A DNA stretch of 64,000 bases, taken from the NCBI RefSeq assembly GCF_015482775.1, contig NZ_CP058214.1, forward strand, positions 1,736,001 through 1,800,000, read 5' to 3'. Source of the DNA: Kaustia mangrovi (GTDB lineage Bacteria; Pseudomonadota; Alphaproteobacteria; Rhizobiales; Im1). A program made the position numbers and the translations under genes. Below the pieces are notes generated by a model. The model did no database searches. It was not told the origin of the DNA and was given only the letters and a program-made list of their open reading frames with translations. Below are positions 21,484 to 30,791 of the stretch, piece by piece (the stretch's first letter is position 1; every line of letters starts with the position of its first letter).

Positions 21484-21732
21484 ATGAACAAGTTGCAGCC
21501 CCTGGCGCTCGGTGCCGCATTCGGCATTCTGGGCGCCATCTACATGTTCTTTCTCGGCATCACGGCGATGTTCGGATGGGGCACCCCCATCGTGGAGGCC
21601 ATCGCCTCCTTCTATATCGGCTACGGCGCGTCGCTCGGCGGAGCGATCATCGGAGCGGTCTGGGCGTTTGTCGATTGCTTCATCGCGGGCTTCCTGACCG
21701 CCTGGCTCTATAACCGGTTCGTCCGGCCGTAG
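21484..21732 (+). CDS. Small membrane protein, bacteriophage-holin-like family
   Basis: 82 residues with two or three hydrophobic segments (about 7-30, 36-50 and 54-76) separated by GWGTPIVEAI. It matches a short chromosomal family usually labelled bacteriophage holin, defined by SFYIGYGASLGGAIIGAVWAF and a final AWLYNRF. These proteins occur without phage genes and no lysis gene is present here, so lysis is unlikely. A GAGGAGCAGGCACG leader provides the ribosome site. It is divergent from the HPF group and may share the FNR-like box. Confidence 0.75.
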   Translation: MNKLQPLALGAAFGILGAIYMFFLGITAMFGWGTPIVEAIASFYIGYGASLGGAIIGAVWAFVDCFIAGFLTAWLYNRFVRP

Positions 21733-22335: not shown

Positions 22336-23466
22336 ATGATCCGCTACCCGAGCCCCCGAATATCCGCGCTTGTCCCGTCTGTGCTGGTCGCCCTCTTCGT
22401 GCTCGTGGCGGCCACCTGCCAGGCCGGCGCGCAGGACAGCCAGCCATCGTCGCCGGAAGCGACGCCGGAACGCGTCACCGTCGGCGTGAGGCTCAGCGCA
22501 CCCTTCGTGATAGCAGAGGGCGACGGCTTCACCGGGCTGTCCGTGGAGCTCTGGGAGGACCTCGCCTCGCGCCTTGGTCTTCAATGGGATTACAGGACCT
22601 ACGATACGGCACGCGCCCTTGTCGATGCGACCGCCGCGGGCGAGGTGGATGTCGCGGTGACCAATCTGACGGTCACGGAGAGGCGGGCCCAGCGTGTCGA
22701 CTTCACCCAGCCCTGGTTCGACGGGGGCCTGCGCATCCTCACGCGCGCCGACCAGGGCAGCAGTTTCCGGGACGTGATCGCCGGCCTGCGCGACAGCGGC
22801 TACCTCAGGGCCTATGCCTGGATCGGCTTCGTCATTCTCGCCGCCACCTTGGGCATGACCATCTTCTACCGCCGGTTCGACAGCGACTTCCCGGCCCGAT
22901 GGCGCGACGGGCTCGCGGAGAGCTTCTACAACGTCATGGTCGTCGTGACATCCGGCAAGATGGCCATGAGCAAGAACCTGTTCGGATGGATCGGCCGCAT
23001 CTTCCAGGGCATCTGGCTGCTCGCCGGCGTGGCCCTGATCGCCTATGTCACCTCGACCGTCACCAGCGTGATGACCGCGCTCGCCATCACCAGCCAGATC
23101 AACAGCGTCGACGACCTGCCCGGCAAGACGGTCGGCGTCCTGGACGGCAGCGTCGGCGAGGATTATGCCGAGGAGGCCGGGCTGAGGATCCTGGCCTTCC
23201 CGGATCTCGAAAACGCCGCCGATGCGCTGCTCGACGGCACGGTCGTCGCCGTCATCGCCGATACCGCAGTCCTCGAATATTATGCCAAGACGCATGCGGA
23301 CCAGCCGCTCGAGGTCGTCGGGCGCATCTTCGAGCCGAGCAAATACGCCTTCGCCACGACGCGCAATGACGGCCTGCGCCGCCCGCTCACCATCGAGATC
23401 CTGAAAGCCCACGAAGCCGACGAAATCGAGGCGCTGAGGATCAAGTATTTCGGCGAGGGATCGTGA
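22336..23466 (+). CDS. Prokaryotic ionotropic-glutamate-receptor-like channel (periplasmic binding lobes split by a pore)
   Basis: 376 residues. A signal peptide (1-32) precedes binding lobe S1 (about 46-140), with the amino-acid-receptor Arg in NLTVTERRAQRVDFT. A membrane helix follows at about 160-178, a re-entrant P-loop candidate at 193-212 (SFYNVMVVVTSGKMAMSK), a second helix at 218-248 with AYVTSTVTSVMTAL, and then lobe S2 (255-370, including DDLPGKTVGVLDGS and VAVIADTAVLEYY). This S1-M1-P-M2-S2 order is that of GluR0-type channels. The potassium-channel filter TVGYG is missing; the pore reads TSGKMAM. Stand-alone ABC receptors lack the internal helices, so that alternative is unlikely. 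It is a single-gene unit. Confidence 0.82.
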   Translation: MIRYPSPRISALVPSVLVALFVLVAATCQAGAQDSQPSSPEATPERVTVGVRLSAPFVIAEGDGFTGLSVELWEDLASRLGLQWDYRTYDTARALVDATAAGEVDVAVTNLTVTERRAQRVDFTQPWFDGGLRILTRADQGSSFRDVIAGLRDSGYLRAYAWIGFVILAATLGMTIFYRRFDSDFPARWRDGLAESFYNVMVVVTSGKMAMSKNLFGWIGRIFQGIWLLAGVALIAYVTSTVTSVMTALAITSQINSVDDLPGKTVGVLDGSVGEDYAEEAGLRILAFPDLENAADALLDGTVVAVIADTAVLEYYAKTHADQPLEVVGRIFEPSKYAFATTRNDGLRRPLTIEILKAHEADEIEALRIKYFGEGS

Positions 23467-23668
23467 CGAGGCAAGCCTGCCCCCGCCGCCCATGGCGGCA
23501 TCGTCGGCCGGCGTGGCCGGGGGATAGCGCGCCGGATAACCAGATCGGACTTGGATTGTCAGTGCACTGTGTTAGCGTTTGCCTTGCCGGCCAAGGGGCA
23601 TGGCGTGCGGACCGGACGTTCGGGCGCATGCAGGGCTGGCGGATCGACCAACCGGGGAGTTCACAATC

Positions 23669-24292
23669 ATGACCTTGTTTCGGACCCTGGCGGTGTTCGC
23701 CGCCGCATTGGTGGTGGGGGCCGTCGGTCTCTCGTCGACCGGCCATGCGCGTGTTCCCGGCAGCTATCAGCAGACCTGCCGCGACATCCGCATCGTCAAT
23801 GTCGGATCCTCCGACGCGCAGCTCATCGCGCAATGCCGCAAGCGCAACGGCAAATGGAACAAGTCCAGCATCGCCTACAAGCGCTGCAGGAGCGACATCT
23901 ACAATGACAACGGCAAGCTGCGCTGCGACGAGCGAGGCAAGCCGCTGCCGCGGGGAAGCTGGCAGGAAACCTGCCGCGACGCCGACATTCGCGGCAACAC
24001 CCTCACCGCGCGCTGCAGGACGCGCAGCGGCGACATGCGCAAGACCAGCATCAACTATCGCCAGTGCCGCAGCGAGATCTACAATGACGATGGCCATCTG
24101 CGCTGCAAGGGTGCCGGGAGGATGCCCGGCGGAAGCTGGAAGGAGACCTGCCGCAATGCCCGCCTCGACGGCAACAAGCTTCATGCGGTCTGCCAGAAGC
24201 GCGACGGAAGCTGGAGAAAGACGGATATCAAGTACAACAAGTGCAAGAATGACCGGGTCATGAACGACAATGGCCATCTGAAGTGCGGCTGA
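23669..24292 (+). CDS. Secreted cyanovirin-N-homology (CVNH) lectin-like protein with three repeats
   Basis: 207 residues from ATG 23669 after GGGGAG; a longer in-frame start at 23579 is poorly supported. Signal peptide 1-27. Three repeats follow at about 31-86, 96-146 and 155-206, each beginning GS[YW]xxTCR and ending NGxLxC or DGxLxC. Cysteines are at 37/56/73/86, 102/116/133/146 and 161/175/192/206. The first two of each set match the classical CVNH disulphide; the other two are extra. Ordinary CVNH domains contain two repeats that swap strands, so an odd third copy is unusual. The protein is strongly basic. The likely role is glycan binding outside the cytoplasm; the ligand is unknown. 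Confidence 0.83.
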   Translation: MTLFRTLAVFAAALVVGAVGLSSTGHARVPGSYQQTCRDIRIVNVGSSDAQLIAQCRKRNGKWNKSSIAYKRCRSDIYNDNGKLRCDERGKPLPRGSWQETCRDADIRGNTLTARCRTRSGDMRKTSINYRQCRSEIYNDDGHLRCKGAGRMPGGSWKETCRNARLDGNKLHAVCQKRDGSWRKTDIKYNKCKNDRVMNDNGHLKCG

Positions 24293-24337
24293 GGAACCGG
24301 GTCGTCTGATCCCGGCAACCCGCACGGACGGCACCGG

Positions 24338-24379
24338 GGCCGGCGGTCGCGGCGTATCGCGCGCCAGCAGCCGCCGGCC
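24338..24379 (+). terminator. Long GC hairpin after the CVNH gene
   Basis: GGCCGGCGG pairs perfectly with CCGCCGGCC across a 24-base loop, and imperfect GC pairing continues outside the stem. It lies 46 bases after the CVNH stop and ends 54 bases before the next start. No U tract follows, so it may be a Rho-assisted terminator or an mRNA 3-prime stabiliser. Confidence 0.4.
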
Positions 24380-24432
24380 ACCCCGGCGCGGATGTTGCGG
24401 GACAACGCCCCGCCAAATGGAAGGATGCAAGC

Positions 24433-25458
24433 ATGAGACGGCTTCGCCCACACCGGAACCTGTTCCTCGCAGCCATCGCGGTCGCGGCGCTCGCGGCATT
24501 GACGGCCTCCGGCGCGGTCCGGGCGGACGCCCAGGGAACCAAGCCGTTCACGCTGACCGTCCTCACCTACAACGTCAACGACCTGCCCTGGCCGCTGCGC
24601 AAGAACTCGGAGCCGCAGCTTGCCTATATCGGCAAGGACCTCGCCAGGCGCCGCGCCGCCGGCGACGGACCGGACGTCGTGTTCCTGCAGGAGGCCTTCA
24701 CCTCGCGCAGCCGCAAGCTGATTGAGGCGGCCGGATATCCTTATGTGTTCAAGGGCCCCGGCCGGCGCAGCACCAGCGGCAAGGGTGTCGGCGCGAAGGC
24801 GAAGGAGCCGATCAGGATGCGCACCGAGCAGACCGGCATGAATACGAGGAAATTCGTCAATTCCGGCCTCTATGTGCTCAGCCGGTACCCGTTCGTCGCG
24901 CGCGACAGCGAGCTGTTCGGCTCCGATTGCTCGGGCAATGACTGCCTGGCCAACAAGTCCGTCATCCATGTGCGTATCGCGCTGCCCGAGCCCTATACGC
25001 CCTTCGACCTCGTGACCTCGCACATGGATTCCAACATCCGCTCCGAAGCCCCCGAGGAGAAGCGGCTGCAGGCCCATCATGCCCAGACCGACAAGCTCGT
25101 GGCCTTCGTCGACGAGACGGTCCGCCCGCGCTCCGGCATCCTTGCCGGCGACCTGAACATCAAGGTCGCCCCGCGCTATATCTATTTCTCCGAGCATCTC
25201 GGCGGCATCAATGCGGGCGAGCTGTGCTTCAACACCGCCAAGTCCTGCACGCTGGGGCCGAACGCCACCGAAAAGTCCCTCTGGAAGAAGACGAACGACC
25301 ACCAGTTCATCATCGAGGGCAACAACTACAAGATCACGCCCATCCGCATGATGCGCAATTACGACGAGAAGCCCCAGGGACGCGAGCTCTCCGACCATCT
25401 GGGCTTCGAGGCGACCTACAGCCTCATGCCGATCCAGGCGCCGCGCGGGAACGAATAG
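24433..25458 (+). CDS. Secreted endonuclease/exonuclease/phosphatase (EEP) family hydrolase, sphingomyelinase-like
   Basis: 341 residues with a signal peptide (about 1-33, ending AVRADAQG). EEP active-site blocks occur in order: LTYNVNDLPW (metal-binding Asn), VVFLQEAF (metal-binding Glu), SGLYVLSRYPF, VTSHMDSN (His in the THLxS-like block), ILAGDLNIK (Asp and Asn) and ELSDHLGFEATY (catalytic Asp-His). This order fits bacterial neutral sphingomyelinases or secreted phosphodiesterases rather than AP endonucleases, since it is exported and has the LSDH ending. A pair of cysteines (SDCSGNDC) probably forms a disulphide. The substrate could be a phospholipid, cyclic glucan linkage or extracellular nucleic acid. 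It follows the CVNH gene after 140 bases. Confidence 0.85.
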   Translation: MRRLRPHRNLFLAAIAVAALAALTASGAVRADAQGTKPFTLTVLTYNVNDLPWPLRKNSEPQLAYIGKDLARRRAAGDGPDVVFLQEAFTSRSRKLIEAAGYPYVFKGPGRRSTSGKGVGAKAKEPIRMRTEQTGMNTRKFVNSGLYVLSRYPFVARDSELFGSDCSGNDCLANKSVIHVRIALPEPYTPFDLVTSHMDSNIRSEAPEEKRLQAHHAQTDKLVAFVDETVRPRSGILAGDLNIKVAPRYIYFSEHLGGINAGELCFNTAKSCTLGPNATEKSLWKKTNDHQFIIEGNNYKITPIRMMRNYDEKPQGRELSDHLGFEATYSLMPIQAPRGNE

Positions 25459-27258: not shown

Positions 27259-28149
27259 CTAGATCAGGCCCTGCTCGCTCAGGAAGTTGCCGGCGACCTC
27301 CTCTATGGTCTTCTTGTCCACGTCCACCGACGCGTTCAGCTTGCGCATGGTGTCGTCGTCCAGCTTGGCCGACAGGCCGTTCAGCACCTCCGCGAGCTCG
27401 GGATTGGCGTCGAGCGTTTCCTTGCGGATGACGGGCGTGATGGCATAGGCCGGGAAGAAGCCCCGGTCGTCCTCGAGCGTCACGAAGTCGAAGGCGGCGA
27501 TGCGCCCGTCGGTGGCGAAGACCAGCCCGACATCGACCTGGTTCTCCTTGAGCGCCTGATAGGTCAGACCGCTCTCCATCGCTTTCAGGAGGCTGCGCGG
27601 ATAGCGGAAGTCATAGGTCTTCTGCAGGCCGCGCAGGCCATCCTCGCGGTGCGGAAATTCCGCGTTCACGGCGAAGGAGAGCTCCTCGCCGGCCTCCAGC
27701 TTGGCCTTCAGGTCGCTGATCGAGGCGATGCCCTTCTCCTCCGCCTCGCTCCTGTTCATCGCGAGCGCGTAGGTGTTGTTGGCCTTCGACGGGTTCAGCC
27801 AGACGAGGCCCTTCTCTGCGTCGAGTTCCTTGACCTTCTCGTAGGTCTCCTCCGGCGAGAGGCGCTCCTTGACCTTGTTGTAAACGACGAGCGAGGTGCC
27901 GGTATATTCCCAGTAGACGTCGACCTGGCCGTTTTCCTGGGCCTGGCGCAGCACGGTGGAGCCGAGGCCGTCGCGCTTGTCGACGTCGTAGCCCTTGGCG
28001 GCGAGAAGCTGCTCGGTCATCTCCGCGAGCAGGAGCTGTTCGGTGAAGTTCTTGCCTCCGACCGTGATGGTCTCGGCCGTGGCGGCGGTCGCCGTGCCGA
28101 GGGCCAGCGCGGCCACGAGGGTTACGGTGCGTGCGATTGACTTGAACAT
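27259..28149 (-). CDS. Quaternary-amine ABC transporter binding protein 1 (OpuC/ProX type)
   Basis: 296 residues from ATG 28149; longer frames are shadows of the permease. Signal peptide 1-25 ends TAATAE. The mature start TITVGGKNFTEQLLLAEM and VDVYWEYTGTSLVVYNKVK are signatures of OsmF/OpuCC-type receptors for glycine betaine, choline and related cations. YWEYTGT supplies aromatic residues for the cation box. It is the last gene of the minus-strand order permease, ATPase, permease, receptor. A close paralogue lies at 35230-36117 without its own permeases. Confidence 0.92.
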   Translation of the reverse strand: MFKSIARTVTLVAALALGTATAATAETITVGGKNFTEQLLLAEMTEQLLAAKGYDVDKRDGLGSTVLRQAQENGQVDVYWEYTGTSLVVYNKVKERLSPEETYEKVKELDAEKGLVWLNPSKANNTYALAMNRSEAEEKGIASISDLKAKLEAGEELSFAVNAEFPHREDGLRGLQKTYDFRYPRSLLKAMESGLTYQALKENQVDVGLVFATDGRIAAFDFVTLEDDRGFFPAYAITPVIRKETLDANPELAEVLNGLSAKLDDDTMRKLNASVDVDKKTIEEVAGNFLSEQGLI

Positions 28150-28193
28150 GGTGTCTTTCCTCTTTTCCGTTTCGGGAGGTGTCTCCCGTCGAT

Positions 28194-28940
28194 CTAGCGC
28201 TGCGGATTGACGCCGCGCGGGATGGCCCAGTACTGGATCTGGGCGATGGCGAAATCGGTCGCGATCGCGAGTGCCGCGGTCGGCACGGCGCCGGCCAGCA
28301 TCATGCCGAACTCGTTGAGGGCGATCCCGGTGAAGATCAGCTCGCCCAGGCCCCCGCCACCGATCAGGAAGGCGAGCGGCACGGTGCCCACATTGATGGT
28401 GAGCGCGGTGCGGATGCCGGCGAAGATCACATAGAGCGCATTGGGCAGCTCGACGCGCAGCAGCATGGTGCGCGGCGACATGCCCATGCCGTTCGCCGCC
28501 TCCTTCATATGGGCGGGCACCGCCTTCAGCCCGGCATAGGTGTTGCGCACGATGGGCAGAAGCGAGGCGATGAACAGGCCGAAGATTGCCGGAACGGCGC
28601 CGATGCCGAGCAGGCTCATGGACAGGGCGAGGATCGCCAGCGTCGGGATCGTCGTACCGATATTGAACACCTGCATGACGGTTTCGGCGAAGCGCGCCAT
28701 GGACGGGCGCGACAGCCAGATGCCGATGGCGATGCCGGCCACGATGGCAAGGCCGCCCGAAATCGCGACCAGCCTCATGTGCTGCACGGCCAGATATTCG
28801 ATATCGGGCCAGTAATACACGAACTCGTCGATCAGCCCGGTCGCCGATACCAGGATGCCGAATCCGAAGGCGGCCAGGAGCCCGATCCAGCCGAGGACCC
28901 GGTTGCCCACACTCTCGCGGGCGCTTGCAGCGGCGGCCAT
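28194..28940 (-). CDS. Quaternary-amine ABC transporter permease (OpuCD type)
   Basis: 248 residues from ATG 28940, which shares one base with the ATPase stop (TGATG). Five or six membrane helices; the EAA-loop EAANGMGMSPRTMLLRVEL lies near residues 143-161. A preceding helix pair contains NIGTTIPTLAILAL, typical of OpuC-type channels. It pairs with the 217-residue permease upstream. Confidence 0.92.
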   Translation of the reverse strand: MAAAASARESVGNRVLGWIGLLAAFGFGILVSATGLIDEFVYYWPDIEYLAVQHMRLVAISGGLAIVAGIAIGIWLSRPSMARFAETVMQVFNIGTTIPTLAILALSMSLLGIGAVPAIFGLFIASLLPIVRNTYAGLKAVPAHMKEAANGMGMSPRTMLLRVELPNALYVIFAGIRTALTINVGTVPLAFLIGGGGLGELIFTGIALNEFGMMLAGAVPTAALAIATDFAIAQIQYWAIPRGVNPQR

Positions 28941-30124
28941 CACGACGCCTCCTCTGCCTGCGCCACCGGGGTTCCCGGCGGCGGCACGTTCGGATCGGGC
29001 AGCTCGCTCCTGTCGGTATAGGTCGCGCCCAGGTGATGCGTGATCTGGCGCTGGGTGATGTAGCCGCGGAACCGGCCATCGTCGTCCACGCAGGCGAGCC
29101 AGGTCACGTTGTGGGTGAACATCTCCGAGACGGCCGTGCGCAGGTCGGCATCTATACTGACCGTCTTCGGATAGCCCGCCCAATGCTCCTTCACGGCGCC
29201 GCTGGCGTCCTTCACGTCGTTATAGTGCACATAGCCGCGCGGACGCCCGCGCGGTCCGACGACGACGGCGTTCTGGTGCTCGTGGTCCTCCATGAGCTTG
29301 ACCGCCTTCCTGATGTCGTCCTCGGGCACGATCTTCGGCGGTTCGGCATCCATCGCCTCATAGACCCTGACGAGCCTGAGCCGCTTCAGCGTGCGGTCGC
29401 CGCCGACGAAATCGGCGATGAACTCGTTGATCGGATGGGCGAGGACGTTATCGGGCGTGTCGTACTGGATCAGCCGTCCGGCGCGGAAAATGGCGATGCG
29501 GTCGCCCATCTTCACCGCCTCGTCGATATCGTGGCTGACGAACATGATGGTCTTGCGCATCTCCTGCTGGAGCTTCAGGAACTCGTCCTGGATGACCTCC
29601 CGGTTGATCGGGTCGATGGCGCCGAACGGCTCGTCCATCAGCATGACCGGCGGGTCGGCGGCGAGCGCGCGGGCCACCCCGACGCGCTGCTGCTGGCCGC
29701 CGGACAGTTCCTTCGGGTAGCGCTTGAGGAAGATGGAGGGATCGAGCGCGACCATCTCCAGGAGCTCCGCGGCGCGGGCGCGCGATTTCTTCTTCTCCCA
29801 GCCCAGCAGGTCCGGCACGACGGCGATGTTCTCCTCCACCGTCATGTTGGGGAACAGGCCGATCTGCTGGATGACGTAACCGATATTGCGGCGCAGCTCG
29901 ATCTCGTTGACGCCGTCGGTATCCTCGCCGTCGATGAGGATCTTGCCGCTCGTCTTCGGGATGATCCGGTTGATCATCTTGAGCGTGGTGGTCTTGCCGC
30001 AGCCGGAGGGGCCGAGCAGGATCGCCGTCTCGCCGGCCGGCACCTCCAGATTGACGTGATCGACCGCGGTGACCGGCTCGCCGCCGGCGTCGAAGATCTT
30101 GGTGAGGTTCTTCAGCGTAATCAT
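28940..30124 (-). CDS. Quaternary-amine ABC transporter ATPase with tandem CBS domains (OpuCA/ProV type)
   Basis: 394 residues. Walker A GPSGCGKTT, signature LSGGQQQRVGVARA, Walker B LMDEPFGAIDP and the switch histidine VSHDIDEA are intact. Two CBS repeats occupy about 265-375 (AVKLMEDHEHQNAVVV; TVSIDADLRTAVSEMF). In OpuA/OpuC relatives these sense ionic strength, but this copy also has a 20-residue proline-rich tail, so osmotic control is not certain. The gene lies 13 bases after the first permease. Confidence 0.93.
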   Translation of the reverse strand: MITLKNLTKIFDAGGEPVTAVDHVNLEVPAGETAILLGPSGCGKTTTLKMINRIIPKTSGKILIDGEDTDGVNEIELRRNIGYVIQQIGLFPNMTVEENIAVVPDLLGWEKKKSRARAAELLEMVALDPSIFLKRYPKELSGGQQQRVGVARALAADPPVMLMDEPFGAIDPINREVIQDEFLKLQQEMRKTIMFVSHDIDEAVKMGDRIAIFRAGRLIQYDTPDNVLAHPINEFIADFVGGDRTLKRLRLVRVYEAMDAEPPKIVPEDDIRKAVKLMEDHEHQNAVVVGPRGRPRGYVHYNDVKDASGAVKEHWAGYPKTVSIDADLRTAVSEMFTHNVTWLACVDDDGRFRGYITQRQITHHLGATYTDRSELPDPNVPPPGTPVAQAEEAS

Positions 30125-30137
30125 CGTGTCATCCCCC

Positions 30138-30791
30138 TCAGCGGGTCCCGGCGGGCGTCAGGCGGCGCTGCACCCAGTAAAGGAAATAGTCGGCGGCGAT
30201 GGCGAGCAGGCTGACCGCGAGCGCGCCGGTGATGAGCTGGCGCGGATCGGTCTGCGAGATGCCGCGGCTGATCAGCGTGCCGAGCCCGCCCGCGCCGATA
30301 TAGGCGGCAATCGCGGTGATCCCGATATTCATCACCACCGCCGTCCTCACGCCCGCCATGATCACCGGGATGGCGAGCGGGATCTCCACGCGCCACAGCC
30401 GCTGGACCGGCTTCATGCCCATGCCGCGAGCGGCCTCGCGCAGCGCCGGATCGACATTGTTGATGGCGGTATAGGTGTTGCGGATGATCGGGAGCTGCGA
30501 ATAGAGCAGCACCGCGATCACCGCCGGCAGATAGCCGATGCCGTGCCCGATGAGCGACAGGACCGGAATCATGATGCCGAACAGCGCGATCGAGGGCACC
30601 GTGACGATGATGCTCGCAATGTAGAGCACGATATCGGCGGCGGACCTGTTCTGGGTGATCGCGATGCCGATGGGCACGCCGGTCAGGACCGCAAGCCCGA
30701 CGGCCACCGCGACGATGGAGATGTGCTCCATCGTCAACTCGCCGATGACGCCGAGATTGCTCGTAATGAACGCAATCGTTTCCAAGGCCAC
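30138..30791 (-). CDS. Quaternary-amine ABC transporter permease (OpuCB type)
   Basis: 217 residues, about five membrane helices, with the EAA-loop EAARGMGMKPVQRLWRVEIP. It is the first gene of the transporter operon; 67 bases separate it from the LysR gene upstream on the same strand. Size and order (permease, ATPase, permease, receptor) are those of OpuC systems. Catabolic genes on both sides suggest nutrient uptake rather than pure osmoprotection. Confidence 0.92.
   Translation of the reverse strand: MALETIAFITSNLGVIGELTMEHISIVAVAVGLAVLTGVPIGIAITQNRSAADIVLYIASIIVTVPSIALFGIMIPVLSLIGHGIGYLPAVIAVLLYSQLPIIRNTYTAINNVDPALREAARGMGMKPVQRLWRVEIPLAIPVIMAGVRTAVVMNIGITAIAAYIGAGGLGTLISRGISQTDPRQLITGALAVSLLAIAADYFLYWVQRRLTPAGTR

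Follow-up and report, generated by a model that had tools for sequence, protein, structure and literature searches.

Cyanovirin-N (CV-N) is an antiviral lectin that has been engineered extensively, and its interlocked halves complicate single-site or higher-valency versions. Both halves of the molecule pair a three-stranded sheet from one repeat with a hairpin donated by its partner; short hinges favour domain swapping. The discontinuous half is delimited as residues 1–38/90–101 in the portion of one source consulted (PMC9725752) and as 1–39 and 90–101 in an extract of another (PMC11112747). Direct side-chain contacts with the sugar are attributed, in the available part of a further report, to N42, T57, and probably also E41 (PMC8091458); by numbering, N42 belongs to repeat 1 and T57 to repeat 2. 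In the three-repeat protein encoded by the Kaustia mangrovi locus described here, by contrast, each repeat is predicted to be self-contained in its folding.

Three four-cysteine CVN repeats in one open frame

The window, a stretch of 64,000 nucleotides of K. mangrovi DNA (contig NZ_CP058214.1), contains at 23669–24292 on the forward strand an open frame which begins with ATG and, from the list of open frames and its translation, encodes a protein of 207 residues. Its features are given below, with repeat boundaries from a single-repeat HMM and site residues mapped by eye onto T57, R76, and N42 of CV-N, as numbered in the part of PMC8091458 consulted.

23669..23749, + strand: putative signal-peptide-like N terminus (residues 1–27), judged by eye
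23759..23926, + strand: CVN repeat 1 (residues 31–86); cysteines 37, 56, 73, and 86; site residues T36, R59, and N79
23927..23953, + strand: linker 1 (9 residues); pLDDT block mean 71
23954..24106, + strand: CVN repeat 2 (residues 96–146); cysteines 102, 116, 133, and 146; site residues T101, R119, and N139
24107..24130, + strand: linker 2 (8 residues); pLDDT block mean 75
24131..24286, + strand: CVN repeat 3 (residues 155–206); cysteines 161, 175, 192, and 206; site residues T160, R178, and N199

The protein has exactly twelve cysteines, four in each of the three repeats, as a preliminary description made from the sequence had claimed when it reported three repeats, each with a second cysteine pair. 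The signal-peptide-like segment, recognized by eye, is free of cysteine. The lectin would probably be exported, either to the periplasm or to the exterior.

Assignment to the CVNH family, likewise proposed earlier, is borne out by the Pfam profile PF08881 (E = 2e-25; 90 bits against a cut-off of 24.5), which is independent of the single-repeat HMM, and the first cysteine pair of the family is found in each of the three repeats. The NCBIfam mannose-binding lectin model NF052356 also exceeds its equivalog cut-off of 80, with a whole-protein score of 98 bits that sums two stretches, and a phmmer comparison with the wild-type CV-N chain gave an E value of 1.4e-6. Scores of the three repeats against the single-repeat HMM (75–81 bits) are inflated because these repeats served among its seeds. 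A PF08881 search of the genome itself returned matches of 53 and 52.4 bits at this gene and no second CVNH place. Pfam matches to COLFI and Galaxin_repeat were weak and under their own cut-offs, and were set aside. The description of the protein as very basic stands with a refinement: the net charge, counted from the first repeat onward, is +21 and the highest among the listed relatives, while the pI of 9.9 is high but exceeded by those of relatives L044 (10.9), L045 (10.7), and L006 (10.1).

The observation of three repeats with four cysteines each is confirmed as real and lies far beyond chance. The three repeats are 46–59% identical in pairwise comparison, a divergence which argues against both recent duplication and an assembly artefact, and chance and misassembly are ruled out as its source. 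That the gene might nevertheless be a non-functional copy, through decay or misassembly, is very improbable. Such a copy could be suspected from its rare and patchy occurrence: when the protein was used as query, only one of four genomes in its taxonomic family, its own, gave a match and the three others none, and PF08881 matched 3 of 297 genomes in the order, 9 of 385 in the class, and 5 of 398 in the phylum, its own included each time. The GC content of the gene is also lower than that of the window (62.7% versus 67.2%). However, the frame is intact, all 12 cysteines and the Thr/Asn site residues are kept, the repeats are far from identical, and the GC3 of 0.85 is near those of the neighbours (0.87 and 0.89).

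Several frames surround the gene. Upstream, the product of 22336–23466 (+) matches SBP_bac_3 at residues 47–374 and, under the cut-off, Lig_chan at residues 163–264, and resembles prokaryotic ligand-gated channels of the glutamate-receptor type. The frame at 24433–25458 (+), which begins 140 bases downstream of the lectin gene on the same strand, encodes a signal-like N terminus and an Exo_endo_phos domain that is weakly sphingomyelin phosphodiesterase-like; it has one match in the genome. Further away, the frames in 27259–30791 (−) resemble by eye an osmoprotectant-type ABC transporter with permeases, binding protein, and ATPase. When the window proteins 22336–23466, 24433–25458, and 21484–21732 were compared by tblastn (E 1e-3) with the limited flanks of 27 loci of relatives (L019–L045), no match was obtained, so that the neighbours offer no functional clue. 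A search of 23400–24450 for terminator-like sites found none (mean for shuffles, 1.0), so that the lectin gene may be co-transcribed with the one that follows.

Copy number and cysteine content among relatives

Most relatives came from a pattern scan of genome contigs, which favours four-cysteine proteins because its patterns were derived from proteins of that kind. The 26 loci obtained were predominantly from Alphaproteobacteria (Phenylobacterium, Brevundimonas, Asticcacaulis, Xanthobacter, Caulobacter, and MAGs), with others in Arenimonas, Collimonas, two Acidobacteriaceae MAGs, a Dadabacteria MAG, and an Eremiobacterota MAG. Two pattern-based scans of viral contigs, the first directed at close relatives only, confirmed no relative indicative of phage or viral origin, and phage records yielded no match to the protein.

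Repeats were counted with the single-repeat HMM in open frames of at least 45 residues, at E values up to 1e-3 and with more than 5 bits per repeat. After removal of duplicate rows (L002 and L005, equal to L001; L015, equal to L009; L007, equal to L036; L008, equal to L035; and L009, equal to L037), 43 proteins including that of K. mangrovi remained, with 99 distinct repeats when identical ones were counted once; L047 and L048 stand outside this set. One, two, three, four, five, and six repeats were present in 10, 17, 9, 4, 2, and 1 proteins, respectively, an odd number thus occurring in 21 of 43, although these counts are not independent events since many rows are closely related (L030/L031, L024/L025, L044/L045, and Phenylobacterium). 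Most single-repeat proteins carry an extra region of ∼110 residues, the bare repeat being represented by L041 only. Four cysteines were present in 94 of the 99 distinct repeats, in a sample partly biased to this type. The exceptions were four two-cysteine repeats in L006 and L014, both encoded by a single genome, and repeat 3 of L029, which has three and lacks the fourth only; among the 15 distinct proteins recovered by the Pfam search alone, two were of the two-cysteine kind. Absence of the third and fourth cysteines together in the four two-cysteine repeats fits a C3–C4 disulphide.

The range of one to six repeats, with odd numbers in about half of the proteins and four cysteines in nearly all repeats, indicates that doubled cysteines and odd copy numbers are normal for this subfamily, and that three repeats are neither an anomaly nor a sign of misassembly. 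The expectation of two repeats as the norm consequently fails for this bacterial group. It had also been considered that close homologues might all have two or four repeats; eight others have three, in Rhizobium, Asticcacaulis (two), Xanthobacter (two), two Alphaproteobacteria MAGs, and the Dadabacteria MAG. A three-repeat relative on a Rhizobium lusitanum plasmid is 36% identical over 86% of the protein. With nine of the 43 proteins in this class, three repeats are not exceptional, nor do the models described below suggest that one is left unpaired. Among the two-cysteine type, all five proteins seen (L006, L014, L047, L048, and CV-N) have two repeats, in a small and related sample with two members from one genome; repeat 2 of the Nostoc relative has a single cysteine.

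Some relatives show further variation in architecture. Xanthobacter loci L030 (3707–6783) and L031 (3832–6777) each contain three adjacent CVNH genes with three, four, and five four-cysteine repeats, a natural copy-number series. The six-repeat protein of Arenimonas (L020, 5593–6894) has near-identical repeats 4–6, pointing to recent internal expansion. In four of six relatives submitted to Pfam (L023, L027, L042, and L044), one to three repeats are followed by a beta/gamma-crystallin domain, and a similar region was recognized by eye after one to three CVN repeats in L013, L016, L017, L018, and L026.

Predicted fold, hinge length, and sugar site

An AlphaFold2 (AF2) model of the mature protein, from an alignment of 32 rows (the protein itself and 31 partly overlapping windows from 21 loci), had a pLDDT of 87.8 and a pTM of 0.47, with the same strands occurring three times and confidence dipping at the linkers. 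High local with low global confidence is the pattern given by independent beads, here of ∼50 residues each, in a model whose alignment rows are homologous repeats, such that contacts within and between repeats are hard to separate. Foldseek fits of the whole model were poor (TMq ∼0.2 and rmsd 12–25 Å in the first 25 rows). The monomer model has the CVNH-like fold anticipated earlier: when a single bead (model residues ∼68–120) was compared with solved structures by VIA-align, the first 15 rows were all CVNH chains, with Z scores of 7.5–9.0, 45–53 residues aligned, and rmsd values of 1.1–2.4, and the next unrelated row had a Z of 3.6. The best match of this repeat 2 bead had Z 9.0 and rmsd 2.4 over 50 residues. 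The fit was weaker for microvirin (Z 5.1, rmsd 3.1), for NcCVNH (Z 3.0), and for the crystal chains 3ezm, 1lom, 4j4c, 3lhc, and 3s3z (Z 4.4–4.5, rmsd 10.5–11.1), which, judging in part by their titles, come from swapped or tandem forms of CV-N.

The aligned ranges of the bead span the CVNH chain from its first to its last residues (ends at 101–108; 151 and 167 in two LysM-bearing chains). Alignment of ∼50 residues end to end along a chain of ∼101 fits the discontinuous half of CV-N. Had the bead matched one contiguous repeat, the aligned range would have stopped near residue 50; since it runs to the chain end, the hairpin seems to lie on its own sheet, a topology judged from the first and last residues of the aligned ranges and from pTM. 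A two-repeat relative, L036 from Rhodospirillales bacterium TMPK1, was modelled on a 39-row alignment to see whether the third repeat caused the bead pattern. Its model was similar (pLDDT 82.9, pTM 0.49), with linker residues 57–65 below 50 pLDDT and one bead matching whole-chain CVNH ranges at Z up to 8.3. Judging from the two models, all repeats seem to fold independently of one another, in L036 as well, and a four-cysteine repeat probably retains its hairpin for itself, together with a complete sugar site. An odd repeat number had been thought to imply either swapping between molecules or one unpaired, self-folding repeat; self-folding is favoured by the predicted beads, the single unpaired repeat is not.

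Hinge length provides a sequence measure apart from AF2. Between Cys2 and the hairpin Gly, the spacing was 25–31 in 93 of the 94 four-cysteine repeats (26–28 in 87 of them), with a single outlier at 41, a type to which the odd and weakly scoring repeat of L010 belongs. By comparison, it was 22 in all four two-cysteine repeats of the 43-protein set and in four repeats of the Nostoc and Sinorhizobium relatives (L047 and L048), and 23 in both CV-N repeats. Thus, the hinge is longer where the second cysteine pair is present in the repeats compared. The HMMER profile alignment likewise leaves CV-N four residues short at the third cysteine, with a shorter junction. Linkers in four-cysteine proteins are 6–68 residues long, and junctions in two-cysteine proteins ∼2–6, touching the lower end of the former. 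Together with the copy-number range, the hinge difference agrees with self-contained repeats.

An alternative is that two adjacent repeats adopt the canonical CV-N fold with exchanged hairpins while the third pairs with another molecule, giving a dimer of three CVNH units. Canonical CVNH proteins do pair two repeats, according to the portion of PMC9725752 consulted, and CV-N is able to domain-swap through its hinge at residues 50–53, as stated in the available part of PMC4926178; moreover, linker 2 is short at 8 residues, and both AF2 models are of monomers. Against this, separate beads appear in both the three-repeat protein and the two-repeat L036, the repeat occurs singly in 10 of the 43 proteins, and linkers can be as long as 68 residues. 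A dimer of this kind is considered distinctly unlikely. The explanation judged probable is a secreted lectin in which three four-cysteine CVN modules, each self-contained, are strung together like beads by short linkers. In such a module, the longer hinge, carrying the third cysteine, would allow the hairpin to fold back onto its own sheet; cysteines 1 and 2 would hold the sheet together, as they do in CV-N, and cysteines 3 and 4 would probably fasten the hinge to the hairpin end. A complete sugar site would then lie within each module, the key Thr and Asn both being supplied by one repeat.

The equivalents of these residues are kept in all three repeats (T36/N79, T101/N139, and T160/N199), and of the 99 repeats 98 have Ser/Thr before Cys1 and 96 have the hairpin Asn. 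If hairpins are not exchanged, Thr and Asn come from the same repeat, and one repeat would constitute one site. Arg occupies the R76 position in each repeat of this protein and in 37 of the 99 repeats as a whole; the E41 position holds Tyr, Tyr, and Met here, and Glu in 10 of the 99. With E41 lost here and R76 variable among relatives, the sugar may differ from mannobiose, and whether mannose specificity is kept by this protein may be doubted. It is accordingly possible, if on the whole unlikely, that the beads are self-contained and mannose binding has been lost, the ligand being another sugar or, through charge, an acidic polysaccharide, DNA, or LPS. The high net charge, the loss of the E41 equivalent in this protein, and the variation of the R76 equivalent among relatives favour this, as does the statement, in the part of PMC9725752 consulted, that most CV-N family members prefer a different glycan. 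Conversely, the Thr, Asn, and Arg-76 equivalents of this protein and the near-universal Ser/Thr and Asn of its relatives are kept, and the NCBIfam mannose-binding model scores above its cut-off.

For the self-contained modules preferred here, copy number would set valency, and the protein would be trivalent; cross-linking of cell-surface glycans or exopolysaccharide, helped by positive charge, would suit an exported, basic protein acting in adhesion, agglutination, or matrix binding. From the predictions, hinge lengths, and copy-number counts, the bacterial branch seems to represent the cyanovirin fold in a modular form without swapping. A wider reading, for which belief and doubt are evenly balanced, is that the four-cysteine repeat is a self-contained lectin domain of ∼50 residues, an unswapped half-cyanovirin, spread as a module of one to six copies, odd numbers allowed, through Alphaproteobacteria and some other bacteria, and that the canonical form derived from it, or the reverse; derivation of the canonical form would have involved shortening of the hinge, loss of the second cysteine pair, and locking of two repeats by hairpin exchange. 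A natural family whose repeats stand alone would provide lectin modules of minimal size (∼50 residues), would allow the way in which hinge length decides between self-folding and domain swapping to be tested in nature, and would hint at the origin of the interlocked cyanovirin fold.

Comparison with known cyanovirin-type systems

A literature search on single-repeat, tandem, multi-repeat, and bacterial CVNH proteins, with subscription journals mostly outside its scope, found no four-cysteine or self-folding repeat in the titles and abstract openings of the matches listed. The closest described system is CV-N of Nostoc ellipsosporum (PDB 1iiy, 2ezm, 3ezm, and others), which resembles the protein in repeat sequence, the first cysteine pair, and the Thr/Asn site. 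In CV-N, exactly two repeats, with two cysteines apiece, are joined by ∼2 residues; the hinge is shorter and the hairpins are exchanged. In contrast, the K. mangrovi protein has three repeats with four cysteines each and, by profile alignment and measured distances, a longer hinge and linkers of 8–9 residues, and in the predicted models its repeats are self-contained, with the hairpin not on the sheet of another repeat. The engineered tandem proteins CVN2L0 and CVN2L10 (3s3y and 3s3z) also have more than two CVN repeats per chain, but consist of canonical two-repeat units in a domain-swapped arrangement, as described in the part of PMC4926178 consulted. The protein is a member of the bacterial four-cysteine CVNH group, which includes L020, L030/L031, and L027, a Phenylobacterium protein with a beta/gamma-crystallin domain. 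It shares with the group the repeat itself, a frequent Pro-x-Gly-Ser-Tyr-like repeat start, and flexible-looking linkers; other members differ from it in copy number (one to six), in having, in some cases, a beta/gamma-crystallin domain, and in their lower net charge. The Magnaporthe CVNH-LysM lectin (2l9y and 5c8o) likewise has CVNH repeats far apart in the chain, with LysM between the two repeats, which still form one CVNH fold.
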